28,184 bases of DNA, from positions 1 through 28,184 of the IMG/VR virus record IMGVR_UViG_3300050166_000169; one strand, 5' to 3'. A model generated the notes under the pieces. It was not told the origin of the DNA and searched no databases. It saw nothing but the letters and a program-made list of their open reading frames with translations. The translations under genes were made by a program, and so were the position numbers. Numbering within the stretch: the stretch's first letter is position 1; each line of letters starts with the position of its first letter. Positions 399 through 12,396 of this stretch are shown here, in pieces. Origin of the DNA: a virus.

Positions 399-845
399 TC
401 ATTGGCTGTCGGCGATGGCCTGAAACTTTGCGAGCTGCTCACTCCACAGGGCCGGAATGGTGTGTTTGGTGAACCAGTGCAAGTTCAGCCCCTTGGGCTG
501 GGTGCCTTGAAGGATGCTGTCGATGATTTTGGGATCCAACAGCGTCAAGCGCATGCACTCGTTGACCGTGGCCTGATCCAGGCCCTCCTGCCTGGCAATT
601 TCAACGCCACTGCGAACGATGCCCTCGTCGATGAGCCGCTGCCAGTAAAAGGCCCGTGTGAGCCCTTCAACCAGTTTAGTGTCCGGTAGCTGAGCTTGGT
701 CTTTGATCACCTGGGCGAGGTTTTCCGGCGGCTCAACAACGCTGCGCCCACCGCGTTTGACGAACTTCAGTGGGATGAAGGTGCTGAACTCCACGTGATT
801 TGAGGTGGTGGCCACGCTGTTGTTCATCGACTGTGCGTTATTCAT
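399..845 (-). CDS. Small HTH-like protein downstream of the serine recombinase
   Basis: A 148-residue protein, last gene of the integration operon. Its ATG overlaps the recombinase stop codon (ATGA, 842-845), indicating translational coupling. Residues 1-60 are a polar lead-in. Residues about 60-110 form a helical block in which GVEIARQEGLDQATVNECM (80-98) looks like the helix-turn-helix of ParB/KorB-type proteins, with 'LLDPKII' directly after, as in that HTH family. The C-terminal part is rich in Trp and aromatic residues. I do not recognise a named family with certainty. Its constant partnership with the recombinase suggests a DNA-binding accessory, for example a recombination directionality factor or a regulator of the operon; that role is inference. 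An overlapping plus-strand frame at 402-689 is a shadow. Confidence 0.8.
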   Translation of the reverse strand: MNNAQSMNNSVATTSNHVEFSTFIPLKFVKRGGRSVVEPPENLAQVIKDQAQLPDTKLVEGLTRAFYWQRLIDEGIVRSGVEIARQEGLDQATVNECMRLTLLDPKIIDSILQGTQPKGLNLHWFTKHTIPALWSEQLAKFQAIADSQ

Positions 846-2203
846 GCGATCTCCAATTCACGAAGGTCATATTCCAGTTGTTCATATCCGGCCATGTTCT
901 TTGGCGGAAGGCCGATCAGTGCGCCCCAGGCTTCAAATCGCCAATCCACATGCAGGCCTTCCGGAGCGACGGTGATGCGCTTGATCAGCGTGCGCACGAT
1001 GTCTTGTTTGGCTTGCGTGGCCAGCTGGTCCCATATACCAGCCGTGTTTTTGAAGAACAGCACCATGGCTTCAGGTTCCGTTAGCTTGGGGTTGAGACTG
1101 CAGACTTGCTCCCAGCATTTGTGGACCATCTGACCGGAACGCAGTACCTCGAGCACCTTTTCCATCACGGATTTCTCTATGCCCGCCGCAGGTAGATTGG
1201 CAAATTCCACGGTACCAGCCCCCATTTTTTGGTTCTTGTTGACCACGTAGTAGCGGTACAACTTTCCGCTGGTCTTGCGGGTGGCCATCGGCAGGTAGAG
1301 GTCCCCATCGGCCGTGAACATCATCCCGCGCAGCAAAAAGCCGTGCCTGCACTTCTGACCGAAGGTGTCTCGAGCCCGATCCCGGCTGTTCTGGGTCATG
1401 ATCTCTTGCACACGGTCCCATTGCGACTGATCAATCAGGGCCTCGTGTTGGCCTGGATAAAAGTCGCCCTTGTGTCCAATATCGCCGATGTACAGACGGT
1501 TGTGCAGGATGGTGTAGATGGCCTGCTTGCTCAGTGGCTTGCCGTTCTTGCTCGTGACGCCTTGCTCTACGAGCTGCTTGACCATGAGTGTGGTCGAACG
1601 TGTTGCGACAAACGAGTCAAAGATTTGCCGCACCACCTCGGCCTCCTCTGGTTCCACTACCAACTTTCGGTTGTCCACGCAGTAGCCCATCGGCACTTGT
1701 CCACCCATCCACATGCCTTTGCGCTTGGAGGCGGCGAATTTGTCGCGGATGCGCTCGCCAGTCACCTCTCGTTCGAATTGAGCGAAGGACAGCAGGACGT
1801 TGAGCATCAGGCGACCCATGGACGTGGCTGAATTGATCTGTTGGGTGACTGAGCTGAAGCTGGCCTTGTACCGATCAAAGAGCTGAATCATCTTGGCAAA
1901 GTCAGCCAGTGACCGTGAAAGCCGATCGATCTTGTAGACCACCACGATGTCGATCTTGCCGTCCTGGATGTCTTGCAACAGGCGCTTGAGGCCTGGGCGG
2001 TCCATATTGCCGCCGGTGAAGCCCGGGTCTTCGTAGTTATCCTCGACTTGCTCCCAGCCCTCTGCGCGCTGACTGGCAATGAATGCCGCGCCAGCTTCAC
2101 GCTGCGCATCGATGGAGTTGAAGGTTTGATCCAGCCGTTCGTCCGAGGAGACGCGGCAATACACCGCGCAGCGCTTGGGAGTGACTTGTTGCGTCTCGCT
2201 CAT
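842..2203 (-). CDS. Large serine recombinase (phage integrase)
   Basis: Catalyses integration, and with a partner excision, of the element by four-strand cleavage through a serine-DNA bond. Counting from the ATG at 2203 (453 residues), the resolvase domain (about 10-150) carries the YCRVS motif with the nucleophile Ser19 and the second active-site block KIDRLSR (91-97). The 'recombinase' domain follows (about 168-270). The usual zinc-ribbon region (about 287-345) keeps LRGMMF and YRYYV but lacks the cysteines, as in other DUF2924-associated recombinases. An in-frame start at 2245 exists, but 2203 is preferred because it gives an ATGA overlap with the upstream DUF2924 gene, the same junction type seen at the two other joints of the operon. 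Function is firm; the direction of control over excision is not visible. Confidence 0.93.
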   Translation of the reverse strand: MSETQQVTPKRCAVYCRVSSDERLDQTFNSIDAQREAGAAFIASQRAEGWEQVEDNYEDPGFTGGNMDRPGLKRLLQDIQDGKIDIVVVYKIDRLSRSLADFAKMIQLFDRYKASFSSVTQQINSATSMGRLMLNVLLSFAQFEREVTGERIRDKFAASKRKGMWMGGQVPMGYCVDNRKLVVEPEEAEVVRQIFDSFVATRSTTLMVKQLVEQGVTSKNGKPLSKQAIYTILHNRLYIGDIGHKGDFYPGQHEALIDQSQWDRVQEIMTQNSRDRARDTFGQKCRHGFLLRGMMFTADGDLYLPMATRKTSGKLYRYYVVNKNQKMGAGTVEFANLPAAGIEKSVMEKVLEVLRSGQMVHKCWEQVCSLNPKLTEPEAMVLFFKNTAGIWDQLATQAKQDIVRTLIKRITVAPEGLHVDWRFEAWGALIGLPPKNMAGYEQLEYDLRELEIA

Positions 2204-2670
2204 GCCTTCTTGCCTTTCAAGCCAAAGAAGGCTGGTCCGGACCATTGCGTGCCCGTGATCAATTTGGCGATGGCCGATAGGCTCTTGTACCGCTGGCCGT
2301 CGAATTCGTAGCCACCCGTGGGGAGCACCGTGACCTTGTATTTGTGGCCATCAAATTCACGCAAAAGCGTGGTGCCCGGGAGCAGTGTCCGGGTGGTTGG
2401 CGCAGCAGTCTTAATCTTCGAGAACCTGGCACCGTAGTCGGCCAGCATGTCGCGGGTGCCGCTGGGCAGGGCGCCATAGGCCTGCTCTTGCAACTTGTAG
2501 ATCAAGCGTGACTCGATGTGCGTGCGGTTTGGCCTGGCAGGCCGGTGCACAAAAAACTGATCCCACAGGGCCCAGAGCTCGGGCATTTTCATGTTCGGCA
2601 GCGCGTGCAATTTTTCGGAGATTTGGCCGGTACGCAGGATGTCGTGTATCGGCGGGATGGTGTTTTTCAA
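2200..2670 (-). CDS. DUF2924 family protein
   Basis: A 156-residue protein. Residues 14-75 contain the helical part with the pattern 'MKMPELWALWDQFF' and 'NRTHIESRLIYKLQE', and residues 98-150 the C-terminal small beta part 'LREFDGHKYKVTVLPTGGYEFDGQRYKSLSAIAKLITG...WSGPAFFGL'. This two-part layout is that of the DUF2924 family, which is found again and again directly beside large serine recombinases in proteobacterial prophages; the C-terminal part resembles an RAMA-like DNA-associated module. Molecular function is unknown; a role in recombination or its control is inferred from the neighbourhood. It overlaps both neighbours by ATGA (2667-2670 and 2200-2203), so it is translated as part of one operon. 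Confidence 0.88.
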   Translation of the reverse strand: MKNTIPPIHDILRTGQISEKLHALPNMKMPELWALWDQFFVHRPARPNRTHIESRLIYKLQEQAYGALPSGTRDMLADYGARFSKIKTAAPTTRTLLPGTTLLREFDGHKYKVTVLPTGGYEFDGQRYKSLSAIAKLITGTQWSGPAFFGLKGKKA

Positions 2671-2897
2671 GACTGTGACTCCAGGTGTGTAGACGGGTTT
2701 GCATTGACGCTCTGGTGGGCATGTAAGTCGAGGAACTTGTCTCGATCAGTCGCATATACCCAACTGCTGTGCGCCTGCGTGAGGGCCTGGTGTTGATCTA
2801 CGACCGCTTGTGCGATCAGGTGAGCGATTTGCGCGAGGGAGAGATACCCACTTTTCTCGGCCGGATTGCCTTGGACTGGGGTTTGAAAGTGGTTCAT
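2667..2897 (-). CDS. Small hypothetical protein, first gene of integration operon
   Basis: A 76-residue protein if it starts at the ATG at 2895-2897; a start at 2948 would add 17 residues but would run through the palindromic sequence that looks like a control site, so the shorter form is preferred. The sequence has a helical core 'LSLAQIAHLIAQAVVDQHQALTQAH' (about residues 20-45) and no cysteine or catalytic motif. I do not recognise a family. The stop codon overlaps the DUF2924 start (ATGA), which supports it being a real translated gene that leads the operon. Confidence 0.6.
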   Translation of the reverse strand: MNHFQTPVQGNPAEKSGYLSLAQIAHLIAQAVVDQHQALTQAHSSWVYATDRDKFLDLHAHQSVNANPSTHLESQS

Positions 2898-2905
2898 CGA
2901 GGTGC

Positions 2906-2919
2906 TTTGATTGATCAAA
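2906..2919. promoter_or_regulatory. Palindrome at the start of the integration operon
   Basis: Arms TTTGAT and ATCAAA are perfect inverted repeats around a TG spacer, nine bases upstream of the first ATG of the minus-strand integration operon. The size and place fit an operator for a small dimeric HTH protein, possibly the operon's own 148-residue product. No clear -35/-10 pair was recognised in this direction. The role is inferred. Confidence 0.4.
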
Positions 2920-3001
2920 TCTGACCTCGGAAATCGTAGCCAAAACACCCAAATTCGAGTCGTTGTTTTAGAGGGCCATCAACGCGCTTGAGAGCACAAA
3001 G

Positions 3002-3062: not shown

Positions 3063-3097
3063 TTGACAGATTTTCAAAAAGCTGTATATTTATCCAG
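3063..3097 (+). promoter_or_regulatory. Promoter with LexA/SOS box upstream of 3188 gene
   Basis: TTGACA (3063-3068) and TATATT (3085-3090) form a sigma-70-type promoter with a 16-base spacer. Overlapping the -10 element is CTGTATATTTATCCAG (3082-3097), which matches the E. coli LexA consensus CTGT-N8-ACAG at all but one base of the conserved arms and has the AT-rich centre typical of strong boxes. A bound LexA would cover the -10 element, so transcription of the two genes starting at 3188 should rise after DNA damage. The leader between promoter and gene contains a C4/G4 hairpin with A-A mismatches (3122-3143). Promoter and box are seen directly; regulation is inference. Confidence 0.75.
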
Positions 3098-3187
3098 CAA
3101 TCCGGCGAAAACCACCAAAAGCCCCAGGACGAAGGACCAGGGGTTCAGACGCCTCATTGCCCAACGAAAAACAACAAGGAGATATTC

Positions 3188-4429
3188 GTGAGCCGTAACC
3201 AAACCTACGCCGACATATTGCTGAACCTGCCTGTCGACGACACCCTCAAAACCTTCATCGAGCGCCATGCTTTGCCCATGCCCGAGGGCTGGGCATGGAG
3301 CGACACGGTCCAGACTTCAAGACGACTGATCGGGCTGATTCAGGCGCACCCTGTGGTAGCCATGCGAGACCGCATCGTGGCGGGGTTGCATGCCTGCACG
3401 CTGCTGGCCCACCCACTGGGCAAACAGGCCATGTTCCAAGCTGCCCATGACCGACCGGCCGAACTGGTGGGCCTCATTGCCTGCAAGAGCGATCTGCACC
3501 GTGCCTTCTGGTTGTATGTCCACCACCCGGCATTGTTCGAAGCCGCAGCGGAAATCGAATACCTCGACCACCATGGTCAACAAGCCCAACAGCATGACCT
3601 GGGCCTTAAACGGAGCATCAAGCGTGACGAGGTGTCGATCGCAGCATTCGGTGACGCCATCAAAGGCTTCTACCAGCGGGAGTTGGGGTGCGGCGAGGTG
3701 TGTGTGGTCAATGTACTGGACCGGGCGCGCGGCACGCAACTGATCTCCATCCATGCCAAGGACCTGGCCACGGCCAAGCTGGAGTTCGAGGGCAGCCAGT
3801 TACAGCGGCGGGTGGGCAGTCCGAACATTCACATGGTGCTCGAGTACGCCCAAACCACCGGTGTAGCTCGCACCATCATCCGTGGTGGGGCTAAGTACCA
3901 CGCCATGCTGTGTGAGGCCTTTGCCAGGCACCTGCTGGGTATGGAAGCCGATGCCCAGCGGATCCAGACGCCACGCCTGAACCTGTCTACGCTGCGCTTG
4001 GGACTGAACATCCCACAGGCGATTGATGACGGATTCGTTGGCCTGCAGGTCAAGAGCGTGACCGTGGTCAGCGGTTGCGGGCAACTCAAAATGGAATGCA
4101 CGGCCAGTGTCGCCAGCGATCAGCGCTGCGTGACGGACCTGCTGCAGGACTACTTCGGTGCAGAAAACCCGCTCGCACGTGGCTGGGCCATTCAGGCTGC
4201 TGTCCTCAATTTTTATCTGGCCCCGATGCAGGGTAAGAGCCGCTGTCAGGTGGTCAGTGTGGAGATCACCAGCAAGGGGCGATTGAACCTGCACAAGTTC
4301 GATGAGAAGCTGCGTGCCCAACTCGAGGGCTATTTGGTTCAGATTGGCATCCTGAAGGCGCAGCAGGTGCTTAAACCCGACCGGGAGCAGGAACAGCCCC
4401 AGGCCGTAGCTACCAGCTTGTTCGAGTGA
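3188..4429 (+). CDS. Hypothetical protein, SOS-box-controlled, first of a pair
   Basis: A 413-residue protein with a GTG start preceded by a strong ribosome-binding site (AAGGAGAT at 3176-3183). I do not recognise a family. No signal peptide, membrane segment, nucleotide-binding loop or evident catalytic cluster is visible. Residues 1-160 are mostly helical with several His/Trp residues; residues about 165-270 look alpha/beta ('CVVNVLDRARGTQLISIHAKDL'); residues 290-395 look like a second alpha/beta part ('LQVKSVTVVSGCGQLKMECTASV', 'SRCQVVSVEITSKGRLNLHKF'). The next gene starts seven bases after its stop, so the two form an operon behind the SOS-box promoter. A role in damage response, prophage induction or defence is possible but unproven. 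Long antisense frames here are shadows. Confidence 0.82.
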   Translation: MSRNQTYADILLNLPVDDTLKTFIERHALPMPEGWAWSDTVQTSRRLIGLIQAHPVVAMRDRIVAGLHACTLLAHPLGKQAMFQAAHDRPAELVGLIACKSDLHRAFWLYVHHPALFEAAAEIEYLDHHGQQAQQHDLGLKRSIKRDEVSIAAFGDAIKGFYQRELGCGEVCVVNVLDRARGTQLISIHAKDLATAKLEFEGSQLQRRVGSPNIHMVLEYAQTTGVARTIIRGGAKYHAMLCEAFARHLLGMEADAQRIQTPRLNLSTLRLGLNIPQAIDDGFVGLQVKSVTVVSGCGQLKMECTASVASDQRCVTDLLQDYFGAENPLARGWAIQAAVLNFYLAPMQGKSRCQVVSVEITSKGRLNLHKFDEKLRAQLEGYLVQIGILKAQQVLKPDREQEQPQAVATSLFE

Positions 4430-4436
4430 GGTGTGA

Positions 4437-5393
4437 ATGGAGCTGACACCCAATCAACAAGCCATCAGCTTGACCGCTTTGATGTTCGTTCGGGGCAGCG
4501 CATCCTTTGAGAGCAGCCTGCATGATGAGGAAATGGCAGCGCTGGAGCTTCTCAAGCAGGCGAAGGCGGTTGTGCCTGGGGTGGTCAACAGCCGCGATGC
4601 CGTCTGTGCTTTCTGCGGCATGTACCGTGGTCCGATCTTCAGGAGTGATGAAGGGCTCATGGTGCAGTGCCCGGACTGTGGGCCGTTTGCACTGGATCCG
4701 GCCAGTCAGCGCAGTTGGAGACTGGACGACGAATGGTTGATCCGCAAGTTGCGCGGCGCACTGGACATCTCGCCGCACGCAACCACCACTCAGATCGTCG
4801 ATGGGGTGTGGGACATTGGCCGGTATAAGAAGCGGCCGGTGGTTCTGGCTCGCCGTATCGACTTGGTGGAGCGCCATGGGCTGCGGATTTTTCATGGGCC
4901 TGAGCCACGCAGTAAAAGCTGGGTGATCACGCCACGGCCTTTGGTGCGGGTACCACTGGAGCCGTTGGCCGGGACGGCTGAGTGGTGGCAACTGGAAGAC
5001 CGGTTCGCCTTGCACGGTTTGGCATTGAGATTGCTTGATCCGGACCAAGGCGAAAAAGCCGATGTCCCGCAAGATGGCATACCGAGCGTGGCTGTCCATG
5101 GGCCCTTCAGTGAAGACTTCGCCTGGGTGCACCTGGATGACTGGCCGCACGGTCCCATTCGTTTGACCGAGGCCCAGGCGAAACTTTTTGCGGCACTCTG
5201 GAAGCATCGTCACCTGGCGCAGTCTGCCGAGTTCCTCATGAGAGAAGCGGGACTGGGCAGTGAGCGACCCATAGATATCTTCAAGTTGAAAACATCCAAT
5301 CGTGGTGACCCTCGGTATGAGGGACCGCTGCTTGCGTATGAAAAACTGGTAGCGCGTCAGCGCCGTCAAGGGTTGTATTGGTTAGCGCTTTGA
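4437..5393 (+). CDS. Hypothetical zinc-ribbon protein, second of the SOS-box pair
   Basis: A 318-residue protein, ATG start with GAGGTG just upstream and overlapping the preceding stop region. Residues 57-81 contain CAFC and CPDC knuckles (C57-x2-C60, C78-x2-C81), a four-cysteine zinc ribbon. Residues 120-230 are alpha/beta without a motif I recognise. The C-terminal 80 residues ('LTEAQAKLFAALWKHR...FLMREAGLGSERPIDIFK') look like a winged-helix or other DNA-binding module. Zinc ribbon plus C-terminal helical domain suggests nucleic-acid binding; that is inference. It shares the operon and presumed SOS control of the 3188 gene. A 319-residue antisense frame covers it almost entirely but has no ribosome-binding site or family resemblance. 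Confidence 0.82.
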   Translation: MELTPNQQAISLTALMFVRGSASFESSLHDEEMAALELLKQAKAVVPGVVNSRDAVCAFCGMYRGPIFRSDEGLMVQCPDCGPFALDPASQRSWRLDDEWLIRKLRGALDISPHATTTQIVDGVWDIGRYKKRPVVLARRIDLVERHGLRIFHGPEPRSKSWVITPRPLVRVPLEPLAGTAEWWQLEDRFALHGLALRLLDPDQGEKADVPQDGIPSVAVHGPFSEDFAWVHLDDWPHGPIRLTEAQAKLFAALWKHRHLAQSAEFLMREAGLGSERPIDIFKLKTSNRGDPRYEGPLLAYEKLVARQRRQGLYWLAL

Positions 5394-5500: not shown

Positions 5501-6073
5501 CTACAGAGCCTCGGTCGAAAATTTAATCCTGCCTGACTGAAGCAATTGCTCGAGATGGGTTCGCGTGGAACTCGGCGCATTTATCAAGAAAGCACAGGCA
5601 ACGGGCGCAAAGGCTTCAATCGCATCAATCGGCGCTGAGTAGACCATTCCCTTTCGTGCAATCTTCAAAACATCCGTGACGTTGTTTATTGCCCCCCATT
5701 CGATCTTCGGCGAAAGCGTGTGACTGAACTTATTACGTACCGCGTTGACGTTTTGAATGCCTTGTTTGACGAAACCTGCCGCTGAGAGGTCATCTTTCAG
5801 GAGCTTGGCCTTTTGACCGAAGGTGAGTTTCAGTTCCTCAAGGTTCTTTACCTTGTACTCGGTCTTAATATGCTCGTTCATGTATTGCTCGATCACAAGA
5901 TGAACGCGAAGTACTCTTCCGATCGCGTTATGATCCGCCGAAAACGTTGCATCAAAACGATCAATCTCTGCCTGTGCCTCTTTCGTTAATACGTCCATCA
6001 TGGGCGCGAACAAATCAAGAATTTCGTTCTGAATTTCAGGGCTAATAATAGTAGCTCGTGTGACGTCGGTCAT
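5501..6073 (-). CDS. HEPN-like protein
   Basis: A 190-residue, largely helical protein with ATG start and a good ribosome-binding site (AAGGAA). Residues 50-120 read as a helical bundle ('HLVIEQYMNEHI' then 'VNAVRNKFSH'), and the RNKFSH at 113-118 fits the R-x4-H motif of HEPN domains, where Arg and His build an RNase active site. The overall shape recalls MltR/DUF4145-type HEPN relatives, which are common in defence and toxin-antitoxin loci. Whether it cleaves RNA cannot be told from the sequence, since many HEPN members are inactive. It is divergent from the DUF6615 gene with a 66-base shared control region. The region from here to about 10.4 kb is more AT-rich than the phage genes, a sign of separate acquisition. 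Confidence 0.8.
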   Translation of the reverse strand: MTDVTRATIISPEIQNEILDLFAPMMDVLTKEAQAEIDRFDATFSADHNAIGRVLRVHLVIEQYMNEHIKTEYKVKNLEELKLTFGQKAKLLKDDLSAAGFVKQGIQNVNAVRNKFSHTLSPKIEWGAINNVTDVLKIARKGMVYSAPIDAIEAFAPVACAFLINAPSSTRTHLEQLLQSGRIKFSTEAL

Positions 6074-6139
6074 TCCGTGTTCCTTTTAGCTTGTCGAGAT
6101 CATTGGGATCAGCCTAGCCGCCTAATTGGAGTAATGTAG

Positions 6140-6952
6140 ATGAACCATTCGCTTTGCCAAACGTTTCGGAGAATAGCTTTTCGCACATTCGATCATCTGG
6201 GTACAGCTAAGGTCGTGAATCATCAGCCCCTTGAAGAGACATTTACTGACCTTAACATTCTTGATTTGAAATTCAGGCATGGCTCGGAAATCTTCTCGAA
6301 GACCTTTTCGAAGAACGTTGAGGGAAGAAATGGAGCGGATTGGGAGTGGTGGTTAACAAATAGAACTATGGACAATTGGCTTGGACTTCGGGTGCAGGCC
6401 AAGGTTCTGAATTTGGCCTCTGACTGCTTCGAGCATCTTCATTACCGTTCGGGTGACCCGAAAGAATACCAAAGAGTAAGGCTCAAGCGTGCCAGCAAAA
6501 ATGATGGGCTAATTCCCCTATATTGCTATTACCTGCATTCGCTTGATCTTAAAAATTCAGTATCCGCCACCTGCAGTAGCTTTCCTTACGATATGGAGGC
6601 GTATGGATGCTCATTGAGCTCGCTTGAGCATGTGGAAAATCTATTCACTGCAGGGCAAAAGAAGGATTTGGCGTCGGTATTGAAGCGATCTTATCCATGG
6701 CACTGTCTTGTGTGTTGTTCGGGATATGGCGGCAAGGATCTTCCAACGCAGGCCTGGGAGTTTCTCAAAGGAGCGTTTGATGTTCAAGAATCAAATAAGA
6801 AAAAGGACGATGCCATAGATCCGGGTAAACCTATTGGACCTCGCCCTGAACCGCCGATTCATGTGAGAGAAGCAATGGAAGGCACGGAGAGCGAAAACGC
6901 TCCCGCAGATATTGGCGGTGTGCTAATTATTAAATCGAGTGTCAGAGGCTAA
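6140..6952 (+). CDS. DUF6615 family protein
   Basis: A 270-residue protein; ATG with GGAG eight bases upstream. The N-terminal half matches my memory of DUF6615: 'EETFTDLNILDL' (32-43), 'GADWEWW' (65-71) and 'LGLRVQAK' (81-88), followed by a Cys/Tyr-rich middle ('LIPLYCYYLHSLD', 'WHCLVCCSGYGGKDLP') and a low-complexity, proline-rich tail from about 225. The spacing D67...Q86-x-K88 between beta-strand-like segments resembles a PD-(D/E)XK nuclease core with Gln in place of the acidic residue; this is a suggestion, not a family statement. No function is established as far as I know. It sits between two HEPN-like genes inside the AT-rich cargo, suggesting defence or toxin biology. Confidence 0.8.
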   Translation: MNHSLCQTFRRIAFRTFDHLGTAKVVNHQPLEETFTDLNILDLKFRHGSEIFSKTFSKNVEGRNGADWEWWLTNRTMDNWLGLRVQAKVLNLASDCFEHLHYRSGDPKEYQRVRLKRASKNDGLIPLYCYYLHSLDLKNSVSATCSSFPYDMEAYGCSLSSLEHVENLFTAGQKKDLASVLKRSYPWHCLVCCSGYGGKDLPTQAWEFLKGAFDVQESNKKKDDAIDPGKPIGPRPEPPIHVREAMEGTESENAPADIGGVLIIKSSVRG

Positions 6953-7189
6953 CCATTCGCTGCAGGCGCGACGGTCCTGACGTGGCGCGACCCGGGCTCA
7001 AACGTTGAATTCCCGTTTTTAACTCTCGTGTCTGGCTGCGTTGGGTCCGGTAGAGGCGGTCAAAAACGACAGTCACAGTTCGGCCAGGAGCAGTCCTTGA
7101 AGGCTGATTGCATTCGCGTAGACTAGACGCTCACTATTAGCGGTTTGTACGCAGCACGGTGAAACACTTTAACGACACTTGGAGACTAT

Positions 7190-7855
7190 GTGGCTGATTC
7201 CGAATACTTGAAGGATTTCAAGGCAGTTTGGGGCGATTCTTGTCAATCAATGTGGGCGGAATTGCTCGCACTTTCGATGGCCGAGTCCCACGTAATTTCC
7301 AACTACGCCAAAATTCCAAGCGATCTGTTGCTCACGGAGATGTTCTATACGCCAGTACTGCGAGGGCGATTGGAAGACTTGCGAAAGGACACTTACCTTT
7401 CACGAGTTGGTATATACCGCCTCGCTGTCATTACAAATCGCTTGGTGGTCCTCTCAGCTTCGTTCGAAACATACTTCTCATATTTTTTGGATGCATTCAT
7501 TCAAACGAAACCGAAGTACTTCGATAAGGCAGAAAATGCACGTACACCAGCGGGCGACAAGTTGCTAGGTGATGTCACAAAGATTCGCGGCTTAAGCGCG
7601 CGAATCAAAAAATTCGGCGAGTTGGCTCCGTCAAAAATCAAGTCAATCGAGGCACGCTTGACTTACCTAGACGATGTGTACATGCTCAGAAACGTGCTTG
7701 CTCATCGCGCAGGTCTAGTGGATGCCCATGCGTCTAGCGTCCTAAAACATCTCAAATTCAACGCTGGGGATCGCGTGTCGCTCTCAACGGACAAGCTGCT
7801 TGAATTAGCCGCCCCAGTCGTTAAGATTGCTGAGGCGCTTGATCAAAAGCTCTAG
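7190..7855 (+). CDS. HEPN-like hypothetical protein
   Basis: A 221-residue protein with GTG start and GGAGA at 7181-7185. It is mainly helical. Residues 160-175 contain 'LDDVYMLRNVLAHRAG', in which R167-x4-H172 is the typical HEPN arrangement at the start of the last long helix, and residues 80-105 ('NRLVVLSASFETYFSYFLDAFI') form the preceding long helix, as in RiboL-PSP/HEPN-like proteins. It may be an RNase or an inactive HEPN adaptor. The 237-base gap upstream contains a possible weak promoter (TTGAAG at 7097-7102, TAGACT at 7119-7124). It converges with the nuclease gene at 7918. It is not similar enough to the other HEPN-like protein here to be called a paralogue. Confidence 0.78.
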   Translation: MADSEYLKDFKAVWGDSCQSMWAELLALSMAESHVISNYAKIPSDLLLTEMFYTPVLRGRLEDLRKDTYLSRVGIYRLAVITNRLVVLSASFETYFSYFLDAFIQTKPKYFDKAENARTPAGDKLLGDVTKIRGLSARIKKFGELAPSKIKSIEARLTYLDDVYMLRNVLAHRAGLVDAHASSVLKHLKFNAGDRVSLSTDKLLELAAPVVKIAEALDQKL

Positions 7856-7917
7856 TAGATTGGGTGGATCCCTCAAAAGCAGTACAGAGCAGTCTATAGA
7901 AAGAAGTGGAAGTTGCT

Positions 7918-8643
7918 TCAACGAGTGAGGCGCGAGCCGATGAGCGACTGGAATAATTGAAGGATTTCTACCTTTGTTCGACCACTACTAATGATGGATA
8001 GGAAATTGTCGAATTTCATCGAAACTTGCACTCCGCTTCTTGGATTGAGCAGAACGAAGTGCTGCCATTCTTCGCTGTGCCCCTCGATTGACGCGGAGAA
8101 GCTGAGCAACCAATATATGGCGATTTGGCGATAGTCGGCCGCAGAGAATCGTTTGGCCGTGCATTTCACTTCGACCAATGTGGAACCTAGAGAGAAATCT
8201 CCGTGACCGTTTGCAATCCACTCAAGGCCTGGGATTTGGGGCCGAATCACGATCGTATGCCCACTTGTCCGACTCATCTCCGTCATTGTGTTGGCGAGAT
8301 TTCTCCCAACAGTTTCCGCCAATAGCTGGTCACCTTCAGTAAGTTGATCGGGCAACTCAGCGTCGAAATAGACGCGTTGCCGACGCAGGGTTTCAGCGAA
8401 ACATCTTGGCCAATCAATGACGACTGCGCCACTAAGAAGAGTCTCGCCTACGGTGTAACCGAGCTCGAAGAGCATTGCACGCTGTAGAGTCGAACGTCGT
8501 ATAAGGTCAGGTCGGAGCGGCTGGATAGGTACAGTTAGCTCAGATTTGTTGAAGTAAGCCACAACGCCCGGCGTTAGTTGTGGAAACACTTCATCGAAGA
8601 CTCCTGGGATATTTCGCGCTACTGTGCGTGGGTCAAACTGCAT
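7918..8643 (-). CDS. PD-(D/E)XK-type nuclease, partner of reverse transcriptase
   Basis: A 241-residue protein. The core reads GDFSLG-STLVEVKCT...YRQIAIYWLL: Asp149, Glu158-x-Lys160 and Gln173 are spaced as in PD-(D/E)XK endonuclease folds (acidic residue before one strand, E-x-K on the next, then a helix with Gln). Residues 1-130 form a separate N-terminal part, helical, beginning 'DPRTVARNIPGVFDEVFPQLTPGVVAYFNKSEL'. Its ATG (8641-8643) lies inside the last codons of the reverse transcriptase gene (11-base overlap), so both proteins are almost certainly made together. A role as the DNA-cutting effector, or as a processing nuclease for the RT product, is inferred from context. I do not recognise a named family for the full protein. 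Confidence 0.82.
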   Translation of the reverse strand: MQFDPRTVARNIPGVFDEVFPQLTPGVVAYFNKSELTVPIQPLRPDLIRRSTLQRAMLFELGYTVGETLLSGAVVIDWPRCFAETLRRQRVYFDAELPDQLTEGDQLLAETVGRNLANTMTEMSRTSGHTIVIRPQIPGLEWIANGHGDFSLGSTLVEVKCTAKRFSAADYRQIAIYWLLSFSASIEGHSEEWQHFVLLNPRSGVQVSMKFDNFLSIISSGRTKVEILQLFQSLIGSRLTR

Positions 8644-10327
8644 CGCTAATCCCTTGAGCCCATTGCATGAAAACGGACGCGAACCGTGGCTCTGCGCCGC
8701 GTGGAAGCTTACTGAGCTTCGCTTTGTCCTTCACTTCGTCAAAGGGTAGCTCGACACCGAGTGCCCACGATTGGCTCGCGGCACGTTTTGCCTGCAGTCG
8801 AGCCTTTGCTCCTTCATCGCCGAACTCTAGTGAGGCGAACCAGTACAGCCGTTGGCATTCCGGACTCATTTGCTGCCAGCGATTACGCAAATAATTAAAC
8901 GCTACGGTATCACCCCATCCGCGCCAGCATTCGATGCAAGCCCGTCGCACGATGTCTAGTTGCGATTCGTCAAACAACTGACGCACAAACAGTACGCGGC
9001 TTGGAGTGCTTTGAAAACGCAAACTCCGCAGGTAGTGGAGTAAGCTGGTGTCTGCCTTCAACAGATGCGCTGAGTGTTTTGGCACGGCATCTAGCAAAGA
9101 ATCAAGCGTTGCGTGGATACTAGAAAACCTTGTATCGCCTCGAAGAGTGGCAATGCCCCGCATGATTGTCGAAAAAGACGAACGAAACGCATGAAGGTTT
9201 TGCTGTTTTAGCAGTGTCCCTGCTATTTCAAGTGCAGCAACCGGCTCATGGAGTCGCATAGTCCGCCCAATCTGGGTTACGAGGAAGGAGTCGGGCAGGG
9301 ACTTCTCAAGCTCACGGTTCAGGAGTTTTCGTACATCAAGTGTCTCTACAGTTTCCACGAGAGACTCATAGTCCTCTTCGGGACTGTCGGAGTATGGATC
9401 GAACTTGAGGTCGATGCTTCGCAGCTTCGCAGCCTCGACGTCATCGCCACCAAGTTGTGATGTGACGTAATCACGATAGTGTTTCGAGGACAAAAACACG
9501 GTCTTCGACTTGTTCAAGCTCAATCCGTAGTCCATCAATGCATGTGCCACAATGCCGAGAGCACGGTATGCCTCTGCAGCATTCTTCGCAATGAGCACAT
9601 AGTCATCAACATACCGGTTCCATTGGATGCCCTTGGCAGTCAAAGACGCATCTACTTGGTTTAGTACAAGTTCAGACAAAATTCGGGCGCCCTGGCCTCC
9701 CACAGGTAGACCGAATGAGCGACCTGCGAAGAACTTGCTAAGCAGCGCATTAACTTGCTTCGCCACTGCTACGGCATCGCCGCCAAGGCCGCCTATTACG
9801 TTTTCAACGTAGTGATGAGAGACGTGCTCATAGAAGCTGGAAATATCTGTTTGTACGACAAATGCCTCGCTACCAGCTATGTTCGCCTGAGCTACCGTTG
9901 CTTCCTTAAAGGCGCGCCACGACTTGGTCTCATCGAATAGCTGTTCGCCTCCGTCAAGCAAGAATCGGTAGGAATGAGCGAAAGGAGAACGATTCGGTTC
10001 AAGTGCTTCCGCGATTGCAATCGCCAATCCATTGAGATAGATGTTCCAGAACGGATGTATCTTTGCTACCACCCGAAATCCAGCTGGACCTGAGGGTGCA
10101 AGCAGCCGCTCGCTATGAACATGCAACTCCGCGATGCGTTCATGATTGTCTTTGCTCGCTTGACTGTCACGAAGTTCAGCGTAGAAACCGTAAGCGATGG
10201 TTGCAAGTGCCTCGGCCTCGTCACCACAGAACCGAACGTCCATGTCAAATGGCAAGGTGTCGTTGTCGCCGTGTTTTGATACCTCGCGGGCAGCGCGTTC
10301 GAAATGATGCAGTTCAGGTTTGAGCAA
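8633..10327 (-). CDS. Reverse transcriptase with C-terminal helical domain (UG/Abi-type)
   Basis: A 564-residue protein; TTG start preceded by AGGAAA at suitable spacing. RT palm motifs are complete: motif A TDISSFY with Asp161 (160-166), motif B 'GLPVGGQGARILSEL' (206-220), motif C YVDD (239-242), motif D 'GLSLNKSK' (268-275). A substrate for cDNA synthesis is not visible. Residues about 300-564 have no maturase or endonuclease motif and read as repeated helices, like the HEAT-like domain of the unknown-group/Abi RTs that act in phage defence (DRT and AbiA/AbiK/Abi-P2 relatives). It is not a group II intron RT (no intron features around it) and retron hallmarks were not seen. The stop overlaps the nuclease start by 11 bases. 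Class within the defence RTs could not be assigned. Confidence 0.88.
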   Translation of the reverse strand: MLKPELHHFERAAREVSKHGDNDTLPFDMDVRFCGDEAEALATIAYGFYAELRDSQASKDNHERIAELHVHSERLLAPSGPAGFRVVAKIHPFWNIYLNGLAIAIAEALEPNRSPFAHSYRFLLDGGEQLFDETKSWRAFKEATVAQANIAGSEAFVVQTDISSFYEHVSHHYVENVIGGLGGDAVAVAKQVNALLSKFFAGRSFGLPVGGQGARILSELVLNQVDASLTAKGIQWNRYVDDYVLIAKNAAEAYRALGIVAHALMDYGLSLNKSKTVFLSSKHYRDYVTSQLGGDDVEAAKLRSIDLKFDPYSDSPEEDYESLVETVETLDVRKLLNRELEKSLPDSFLVTQIGRTMRLHEPVAALEIAGTLLKQQNLHAFRSSFSTIMRGIATLRGDTRFSSIHATLDSLLDAVPKHSAHLLKADTSLLHYLRSLRFQSTPSRVLFVRQLFDESQLDIVRRACIECWRGWGDTVAFNYLRNRWQQMSPECQRLYWFASLEFGDEGAKARLQAKRAASQSWALGVELPFDEVKDKAKLSKLPRGAEPRFASVFMQWAQGISDAV

Positions 10328-10329
10328 AA

Positions 10330-10413
10330 AAGTTTCCTGTTATGGTGTTTGCGCCTTTTTTGTCGGAGCGGCATTCCAATACTAAGGCAATTGACTGACT
10401 GTTGAGGAAACTT
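10330..10413 (-). promoter_or_regulatory. Leader of RT operon with inverted repeat covering the RBS
   Basis: AAGTTTCCT (minus strand, 10413-10405) is perfectly complementary to AGGAAACTT (10338-10330), with a 66-base loop; a G-T pair can extend it to ten pairs. The downstream arm contains the AGGAAA ribosome-binding site of the RT gene and runs into a T-rich stretch that includes the TTG start. When paired, the leader would hide the RBS. The gene-free interval is 10328-10463, between AbiEii stop and RT start. It could also encode a short structured RNA used by the RT; no such RNA family was recognised. Confidence 0.5.
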
Positions 10414-10463
10414 CGATTTGCTTGATCAGAACTAGGTGGCCATGAGTGATTGAAATACGCGAT

Positions 10464-11294
10464 TTATGCAATCAATTTTGTTCGAAGCAATTCAATGACC
10501 GAATTCAGATCTGGTGCTTGCAACTGGTTCTTCTTGATGAATGCTTGCCATTGCTTGATCTTTTGGGGATCGTCGCCAAAGACGGATGTCAGGCCAATGG
10601 GGGTGGAGGCTGGCATGGGCGTATTACGCCGGTCAAGGGTTGCCATGATCGCCGTTTGCACCAACGCTGGATCAAGCTCTTGTGTTGTGAGCAGCACCCA
10701 AAGATCGAAATAGTCCTTAAGCCGAGTGTTGGCCATGCCCAGTGAAACGATGGCTTCGAACTTTTCCGCAACCACGGTGTACCGGGGATAGACCCTGATC
10801 TTGGGCGCTGGCAGTTCTGTCAGCATCACCGGATAGTCGGCCAGCTCAGGCGCTGGGGTGACGGCATCACCATAGCCAATGTCGATCTGGACTGGGCTGC
10901 GAGCGCCATCGAGATGGCCGGTCAAGGTTACTCGAAGACCTGAGTAATTGGCTTCCTTGCGGATTTCGGCGACACGGATGGTGTCGGCATCGAACACGAT
11001 CCCGTCATCACATTCGATTGCGCAGATCTCCCGGAATGCTTCATGCACCAACGGTTCTTCCGCCAAGCCAAAGCCCAGCAGGTCAATGTCCCGGGTGGGG
11101 CGATGCGGGACGTCAAACCACATGTCAAAAAGCAACGCGCCTTTGAGCAGGAAATTGTCCTTGTTGGATGAAACGCTCAGGCGATAGAGCAGGCGCTCCA
11201 AGCCATATCGGGTCAGCACCAGCGAGAAGTCCTGGTTTTCCGCCTTGGCTTTGTTGAGCAGTCTGGCCCGTACAGATGCGGGTTTGTTGATCAC
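10464..11294 (-). CDS. abiEii: AbiEii toxin (nucleotidyltransferase)
   Basis: Toxin of the type IV toxin-antitoxin and abortive-infection system AbiE; family members are nucleotidyltransferases that stop growth when unchecked. Counting from the GTG at 11294 (276 residues), the core shows 'LLKGALLFDMWFDVPHRPTRDIDLLGFG' with Asp69-x-Asp71 as metal ligands in the strand after KGALLF, in line with the nucleotidyltransferase fold (DUF1814). Later conserved parts include the 'VEKFEAIVSLG...RLKDYFDLWVL' helices (AEKFEA...KDYFD), a hallmark of the family. A longer reading from 11360 exists, but 11294 gives a GTGA overlap with the antitoxin stop codon, standard for coupled toxin-antitoxin genes. No truncation is seen. 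Confidence 0.92.
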   Translation of the reverse strand: MINKPASVRARLLNKAKAENQDFSLVLTRYGLERLLYRLSVSSNKDNFLLKGALLFDMWFDVPHRPTRDIDLLGFGLAEEPLVHEAFREICAIECDDGIVFDADTIRVAEIRKEANYSGLRVTLTGHLDGARSPVQIDIGYGDAVTPAPELADYPVMLTELPAPKIRVYPRYTVVAEKFEAIVSLGMANTRLKDYFDLWVLLTTQELDPALVQTAIMATLDRRNTPMPASTPIGLTSVFGDDPQKIKQWQAFIKKNQLQAPDLNSVIELLRTKLIA

Positions 11295-11893
11295 GTGGTT
11301 AGTCCTTCCAGGTATGGACGCATGACGTTTTGCACTCTGCAAATCTGCCCGTAGTGCCAAAGCTCATCCATAGAGACACGCTTTGCATTCCACGCCTCTT
11401 TCAGCGCCTCCATGGCCACGTCCAGGCCAATCTTGTTGCGGTACTTGAAGCAGTCTGCAATGGTTTTGGGCACATTCGTGATCTTCACAGGTACCCCTTC
11501 AATGTTGTGAAGTTCGATGCCCTCGGAGAGCGCTGCTCCACTGAACCGTGCGACATGAAGGGGGGGGTAGGACATCTGTGGTGACCTGGCCTTGTTGTCT
11601 ACCGCAATCCACACCTCAAAGGGCGCTTGGGTTGTCAGTCCGTGGAAGGACAGGGCAGACAGAAGACACACCAGTACCTGGGGATGCTTGCTTGCGACTT
11701 CGGCAAGGCTGGCGAATTCGGATGCTTTGCGTTGCGGCAGTGCATACAGCCCCCGGCTGACCTTGTGCAGTAGTCCTCGCTGGGCAAGCTGCGCCAGGTA
11801 CATGCGTGAATGCCCCCGGGCAACGGCGTCGCTGGGGCGCAGCAGAACCTTGCCCTGGGCGAGATCGAGAAGGTAGTCAGAGGTGGCTTCCAT
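11291..11893 (-). CDS. abiEi: AbiEi antitoxin and repressor
   Basis: Antitoxin of the AbiE pair, 200 residues. The N-terminal winged-helix part (about 15-52) has the family pattern 'GHSRMYLAQLAQRGLLHKVSRGLYALP', followed by the AbiEi antitoxin domain with 'HPQVLVCLLSALSFHGLTTQAPFEVWIAV' and 'VPVKITNVPKTIADCFKYRNKIGLDVAMEALKEA'. In characterised AbiE systems this protein represses its own promoter through inverted repeats and counters the toxin without forming a stable complex with it. The matching inverted repeat lies immediately upstream (11903-11948). The promoter there would place the mRNA start at or within a base or two of the ATG, so the transcript may be leaderless. The toxin gene follows with a GTGA overlap. 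Confidence 0.92.
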   Translation of the reverse strand: MEATSDYLLDLAQGKVLLRPSDAVARGHSRMYLAQLAQRGLLHKVSRGLYALPQRKASEFASLAEVASKHPQVLVCLLSALSFHGLTTQAPFEVWIAVDNKARSPQMSYPPLHVARFSGAALSEGIELHNIEGVPVKITNVPKTIADCFKYRNKIGLDVAMEALKEAWNAKRVSMDELWHYGQICRVQNVMRPYLEGLTT

Positions 11894-11948: not shown

Positions 11949-12002
11949 TTCAGAGAGGGAGGCGAGGACATGGTCCAGGTGTCGGGTGGAGCGGAAATCG
12001 GA

Positions 12003-12060
12003 TTAAAGAACTGGAGATATCGCCAAAGTTCTTTATTCAGTTCCTTAACAGTTCTTTATT
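12003..12060 (+). promoter_or_regulatory. AGTTCTTTA motif cluster before replication operon
   Basis: Three copies in one direction, AGTTCTTTATT (12027-12037), AGTTCCTTAA (12039-12048) and AGTTCTTTATT (12050-12060), start 12 and 11 bases apart, about one DNA turn. An inverted copy TTAAAGAACT lies at 12003-12012. They stand some 50 bases before the first gene of the early operon. This looks like an operator array for a phage regulator or an iteron set. No repressor gene for it was recognised. The rest of 11949-12111 contains the strong RBS AAAGGAG of the next gene and nothing else I can name. Confidence 0.55.
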
Positions 12061-12111: not shown

Positions 12112-12396
12112 ATGCTGCTTGCAACACCAGCACTCGAGGCGCCAGTTTTCCTGAGCGCCGCTTCCCCTGAATCCACCATGCCCAAGCAGCTGGTGCTGAC
12201 CGAGGCTGACTTGGCCTCGCGCTGGGCCATGAGCCCTAAAACCCTGCAGCGCTGGCGTATGACTGGCACAGGGCCGACCTATCTCAAACTGGGTAAACGG
12301 GTGAGCTACCCGCTCAACGCCGTGATCGCCTTCGAGAACTGCGTCCAGCATGTCTCGACCTCCAAGCGTATCCCCGGGAAGGCAGGTGCGGCATGA
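12112..12396 (+). CDS. Helix-turn-helix (AlpA/excisionase-like) protein
   Basis: A 94-residue protein with a strong ribosome-binding site (AAAGGAG at 12100-12106). Residues 28-70 read 'LTEADLASRWAMSPKTLQRWRMTGTGPTYLKLGKRVSYPLNAVIAFE', the pattern of MerR-type winged HTH domains in AlpA and excisionase proteins (LT..ELA.RW..S..TL.RWR..G.GP...K.G..V.Y....). The first 22 residues are not part of the domain, and an internal ATG at 12178 could also be used. It opens the early operon and overlaps the next gene by ATGA. It may regulate the operon or act as excision factor for the serine recombinase; both are inference. Confidence 0.85.
   Translation: MLLATPALEAPVFLSAASPESTMPKQLVLTEADLASRWAMSPKTLQRWRMTGTGPTYLKLGKRVSYPLNAVIAFENCVQHVSTSKRIPGKAGAA

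Follow-up and report, generated by a model that had tools for sequence, protein, structure and literature searches.

An SOS box covers the -10 element of the P413 promoter

We analysed a 28,184-nt stretch of viral DNA (IMG/VR record IMGVR_UViG_3300050166_000169, positions 1 to 28,184; hereafter the window), and in particular a rightward pair of genes, P413 and P318, together with the SOS (LexA) box CTGTATATTTATCCAG at their promoter (Table 1). The window starts with an HU gene, followed by a leftward integrase unit that encodes a ParB-like protein, a large serine recombinase, a DUF2924 protein and the small protein orf93. The open reading frame of P413 begins with a GTG codon, just upstream of which lies AGGAGA, and that of P318 starts 7 nt past the P413 stop codon. 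The promoter combines TTGACA, a spacer of 16 nt and TATATT (11 of 12 consensus matches), and the SOS box covers the -10 element, that is, it is placed for promoter blocking. These features bear out what had been claimed from the letters of the window in an earlier reading (the original prediction), namely that an SOS box sits on the -10 element of a good promoter reading into a 413-residue protein and a zinc-ribbon protein. The original prediction had proposed scoring the box with a LexA matrix, looking for the gene pair and the box in other genomes, and predicting the structures of both proteins.

Table 1. Features of the window, with positions counted from its first nucleotide.
Feature	Position	Strand	Remarks
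ParB-like / PHROG 14161 'recombinase' protein, integrase unit	399..845	-	
Large serine recombinase (integrase)	842..2245	-	
DUF2924 protein, integrase unit	2200..2670	-	
orf93, small gene that opens the divergent integrase unit	2667..2948	-	Has counterparts under either type of switch
-35 element TTGACA of the P413 promoter	3063..3068	+	TTGA invariant, CA mostly kept in the box clade
SOS (LexA) box CTGTATATTTATCCAG, overlapping the -10 element	3082..3097	.	Matrix score, conservation, host genome scans
-10 element TATATT, within the SOS box	3085..3090	+	
P413, conserved phage core protein, 413 aa	3188..4429	+	AlphaFold2 model resembles the RdgC / CENP-N (RexA-type) DNA-binding fold
P318, second gene, 318 aa	4437..5393	+	Zinc ribbon and predicted C-terminal PhoB/OmpR-like winged helix
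Four-Cys zinc ribbon of P318	4605..4679	+	C57, C60, C78 and C81, invariant
Predicted winged-helix domain of P318	5163..5390	+	About residues 243-318
Variable cargo, flanked by P318 and the excisionase-like gene	5501..11893	.	DUF6615, DRT8-like reverse transcriptase with PDDEXK, AbiEi/AbiEii; outside the switch
AGTTC repeat array, candidate P318 target	12002..12060	.	One inverted and three direct copies, 11-12 bp apart
Excisionase/HTH_17-like gene, first core gene past the cargo	12112..12396	+	

To score the box we used a matrix of SOS sites from Limnohabitans hosts from which the exact sequence CTGTATATTTATCCAG had been left out. The box scored 22.7 bits, within the range spanned by the host's own SOS sites on the same matrix (14.5-24.2 bits), and it was the best LexA-like site in the window (next, 9.7 bits); none of 60 Markov shuffles of the window reached this value. 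There is one LexA-like site only in the window, and likewise one in L039, a related 46.9-kb prophage of L. parvus. The pattern CTG-N10-CAG alone occurs in the window at chance level (12 found, 13.1 expected), and a claim of significance from that pattern alone was therefore rejected.

A search for P413 yielded 38 loci from genomes and another 38 from viral contigs, to which alignment added 33 viral loci; several of these records are fragments, and some loci are near-duplicates. Both the gene pair and the box are conserved in a clade that includes the window (the box clade). Among 29 aligned upstream regions of this clade, the most conserved 16-mer upstream of P413 starts exactly at position 3082, the first base of the box, and has a mean pairwise identity of 0.958 (median, 0.61), unlike the promoter spacer and flanks, which are variable.

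A 16-mer that overlaps a -10 element might be conserved merely as core promoter, or might be the operator of a phage repressor that resembles a LexA box by chance, as the chance-level count of CTG-N10-CAG would allow. We consider this very improbable. The CTG and CAG edges are kept at positions where the -10 element has no need of them, and in some box loci the site is the perfect palindrome CTGTATATTTATACAG; moreover, the P413 promoters of the sister phages have a different -10 element and no box, and one more distant locus (L113, described below) carries TACTG-N10-CAGTA at a different placement. As for a repressor that might own such an operator, orf93 is the only clade-wide small neighbour, and it was rejected as a candidate new repressor because it has counterparts in both types of switch.

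The box matches LexA sites of Limnohabitans hosts

The same 16-mer equals SOS sites of the host and is almost absent elsewhere in the host genomes, which likewise speaks against chance resemblance. In the genome of L. parvus II-B4 (3.0 Mb) the pattern CTGTW8NCAG is found at four places only: at lexA (site CTGTATTTTTAACCAG, with a second box beside it), at the promoter of the related prophage (CTGTATATTTATACAG), at a gene for a Y-family DNA polymerase (PF00817, 3.5e-35), and at a gene with a GIY-YIG motif judged by eye and no Pfam match. A reversed control pattern gave 0-1 matches. Three further Limnohabitans genomes each contain the prophage box in addition to sites at lexA and elsewhere, some of the latter at umuD-like genes and a Y-family polymerase and two of them unassigned to a gene. 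In Limnohabitans JirII-31, a 16-mer identical to CTGTATATTTATCCAG is flanked by a umuD-like gene and a divergent exonuclease-like gene (L106). (A host umuD-like gene of JirII-31 with the identical 16-mer is found about 1.3 kb from the integrase end of the prophage, at L018:1459-1930.) In the region upstream of Limnohabitans recA, a clear AT-rich box was not seen.

The box and an Xre/ImmA pair exclude one another

In the sister phages, the gap between the DUF2924 gene and P413 is occupied by a divergent Xre gene (HTH_31/HTH_3) together with a gene for an M78 metallopeptidase. This holds for all more distant relatives with enough upstream sequence, apart from the exceptions named below. A repressor and a metallopeptidase of these kinds, divergent from the operon they control, form the ImmR/ImmA arrangement known from ICEBs1 (PMC8960796). 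In the window and throughout the box clade this arrangement is absent, and a DUF2924-P413 gap of about 0.5 kb carries the SOS box. Over the whole set, 58 loci have Xre and ImmA without a promoter box, 38 (the window included) have the box without either gene, and none has both. In two of the exceptions (L011 and L040) the box differs at a single edge base, and two others (L028 and L038) are without upstream sequence. In a fifth, L134, a gene for a LexA-like S24 repressor (L134:5218-5949) lies directly before P413. The last, L113, whose P413 is 56% identical, has neither Xre nor ImmA; instead, the palindrome TACTGGATAAATAACCAGTA, of the form TACTG-N10-CAGTA and positioned differently from the box of the window, follows just after a TAGAAT -10 element. 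L113 was not counted as an independent gain of a box: on the tree it perhaps branches next to the box clade (support 52), its branch is long, and its P413 frame is interrupted. (The interruption, at L113:3107-4300, is one in-frame stop at codon 254.)

Family searches of the longer records gave a concordant picture. PF06114 (ImmA, M78) was found in 6/6 records of the Xre/ImmA type and 0/12 of the box type; S24 was above the cut-off in none of these 12, and none of the Xre, S24 and ImmA families was found in L039. In line with the original prediction, the window yielded no CI-like repressor, and neither did the 46.9-kb relative, although unfamiliar repressors could escape family searches; nor was a CI/S24 switch (an Xre or LexA-like repressor with an S24 domain) found in the window. 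The word AAGTATAGC occurs upstream of P413 in 57 of the 58 Xre/ImmA loci and in 0/38 box loci. A common operator consisting of AAGTATAGC in both orientations was considered and rejected, as it holds in 12/58 loci only. On an unrooted tree of P413, the switch states are strongly clustered, with about two changes needed, and the box-bearing rows form nearly one clade.

These results bear on a second explanation, in which LexA genuinely uses the box while another, unrecognised phage repressor keeps lysogeny, P413-P318 being only a damage-induced early module akin to LexA-controlled antirepressors or helper genes. Salmonella prophages are known to have such antirepressors, whose target is a separate repressor of the phage; there, a LexA box in the same manner plugs induction into the SOS response (PMC3121763). 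Moreover, many of the phage open reading frames belong to no family, and Xre genes are found in the cargo of some box-type records. We nevertheless regard this explanation as unlikely. HTH_3 genes occur in 3/12 box-type records and are confined there to cargo or flanks, no CI, Xre, S24 or ImmA gene was found around the promoter or within L039, and the box occupies the very promoter that Xre/ImmA controls in the sister phages. Furthermore, P413, with about 413 residues and common to both switch types, is unlike the small antirepressors. The LexA-controlled antirepressors of the Gifsy prophages lie outside the immunity region and need a separate repressor; since no such repressor was found here, a Gifsy-type model is disfavoured, and we rejected the antirepressor model for want of a target repressor.

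Predicted structures of P413 and P318

By sequence, both proteins remain as unrecognised as the original prediction had found them: neither matched a Pfam, NCBIfam or PADLOC family, searches of the Protein Data Bank (PDB) with their sequences gave nothing useful, and no matches were obtained for P413 in phage and plasmid records or for P318 in phage records. The sole family match of P413 was PHROG 37634, for which the function is given as unknown, and no RdgC profile matched at E values up to 1. The AlphaFold2 model of P413 (predicted local distance difference test (pLDDT), 80.7; predicted template modelling score (pTM), 0.52) had as its top Foldseek matches CENP-N (E = 1.4e-5) and E. coli RdgC (9.4e-5), both with probability 1.0, and more weakly Iml3 (1.1e-2); among the viral models of BFVD it matched a phage RdgC (2e-3). 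λ RexA, RdgC and IML3/CHL4 have been grouped as one DNA-binding fold, and RexA has been reported to bias the λ switch towards lysis (PMC11077077). The best matches of P413 belong to this fold (RdgC/λ RexA/IML3-CHL4, the last corresponding to CENP-L/N), which P413 resembles at the level of the fold only, with low TM-scores (about 0.2-0.4); P413 matched neither an RdgC nor a RexA family by sequence, and it has an extra helical N-terminal region.

For P318, the model (pLDDT, 87) matched at its C-terminus mostly winged helices of the OmpR/PhoB type, with probabilities up to 0.96 and weak E values of about 0.05-1. We read P318 as a zinc-ribbon protein with a predicted PhoB-like winged helix, and probably as an activator. 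Proteins of the PhoB type bind direct repeats about 11 bp apart. For this reason the AGTTC array upstream of the excisionase-like gene is a plausible candidate site for P318. The array is kept across both switch types, and the outer bases of its copies change together between clades.

Host LexA as the probable lysogeny repressor

Taken together, our computational comparisons raise the possibility, which we consider likely, that in the box clade host LexA serves as the repressor of the switch in place of ImmR/ImmA, as in GIL01. P413 and P318 would head the rightward (early) genes of a prophage with a serine integrase, and the promoter of the pair would be its lysogeny switch. LexA bound over the -10 element would keep the P413 promoter closed and the phage silent; upon DNA damage, self-cleavage of LexA would permit P413 and P318 to be made, and P318 might in turn switch on the excisionase gene and the genes for replication, with the AGTTC repeats as its possible site of action. 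Although the tree is unrooted, we infer from the wider distribution of the Xre/ImmA pair that ImmR/ImmA was the arrangement replaced.

The closest precedent for the proposed mechanism is the betatectivirus GIL01, whose lysogenic state is kept by host LexA together with the helper protein gp7 (PMC6182141). As in GIL01, a host LexA box lies at the early promoter and induction by damage would be expected (PMC6182141, PMC4551915); a dedicated phage repressor was not recognised among the families searched. However, GIL01, a linear Bacillus replicon of 15 kb that stays outside the chromosome, carries several LexA boxes, at its early as well as its late promoters, whereas the prophage of the window is of the serine-integrase, tailed-phage type, integrated, found in betaproteobacteria and equipped with one box, and it has relatives with Xre/ImmA on the same operon.

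Several observations weigh against control of lysogeny by host LexA. There is one box here, whereas GIL01 uses several together with a helper protein. The partition of the switch types reflects few evolutionary events, and the tree is unrooted, such that loss of ImmR/ImmA is likely rather than established; several of the records are incomplete, and a repressor of an unfamiliar kind might escape notice. The proposed roles of the two proteins lean on a P413 model whose pTM is 0.52 and whose TM-scores over the full length, against RdgC or CENP-N, are about 0.2-0.3, and on winged-helix matches of P318 at E values of about 0.05-1.

On a bolder form of the LexA proposal we are evenly balanced: that this prophage clade dropped its own repressor and antirepressor, that host LexA is the sole lysogeny repressor, and that the operon has been re-plugged in at least three ways, namely under ImmR/ImmA, under host LexA and, in L134, under a LexA-like S24 repressor of the phage. 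If this were so, any LexA-bearing cell would be 'immune' without a phage immunity protein. Lysogeny kept by LexA is documented in very few phages, of which GIL01 is the main case. Under control by host LexA, the alarm system of the host would decide when the prophage awakens. Having close relatives with and without a dedicated repressor on the same early operon makes the exchange of decision modules testable, as are the ability of LexA alone to hold lysogeny and the fate of superinfection immunity when the repressor is that of the host.

Core genes and cargo of the prophage family

The order of genes is constant in the family: integrase unit, divergent promoter, P413, P318, variable cargo, excisionase-like gene, p161, p258, p140 and primase. 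In almost all loci that extend far enough, P413 is followed by P318, and the pair are core genes of the prophage family rather than cargo. The content of the cargo slot behind P318 varies, with a DRT8-like reverse transcriptase, its PDDEXK partner and AbiE in the window, RloB/AAA genes in L039 and none in L051.

The original prediction had left the choice between a non-classical lysogeny switch and a damage-triggered defence. The former is favoured by a box that is conserved, resembles host LexA sites and takes the position of Xre and ImmA. That P413-P318 is instead a damage-triggered anti-phage defence pair is, in our judgement, very improbable: the pair adjoins real defence cargo, and P413 may have a fold in common with the exclusion protein RexA (PMC11077077), yet the pair is present at a fixed place in essentially all members whatever their switch, while the adjoining defence genes change (DRT8 and AbiE in the variable cargo of the window, RloB-type genes in L039). 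With neither protein matched by PADLOC and the pair belonging to the core, we rejected the defence model.

Within the cargo slot of the window, the DRT8-like reverse transcriptase (PADLOC, E = 2e-147) and its PDDEXK partner span 7918-10327, and the AbiEi/AbiEii-type toxin-antitoxin pair spans 10464-11893. No tRNA genes were found in the window. Several assemblies contain two copies of the P413 locus (L005/L020, L010/L012 and L011/L016), which suggests co-resident related prophages; some of these assemblies are bins of metagenome-assembled genomes, and L020 is rearranged.
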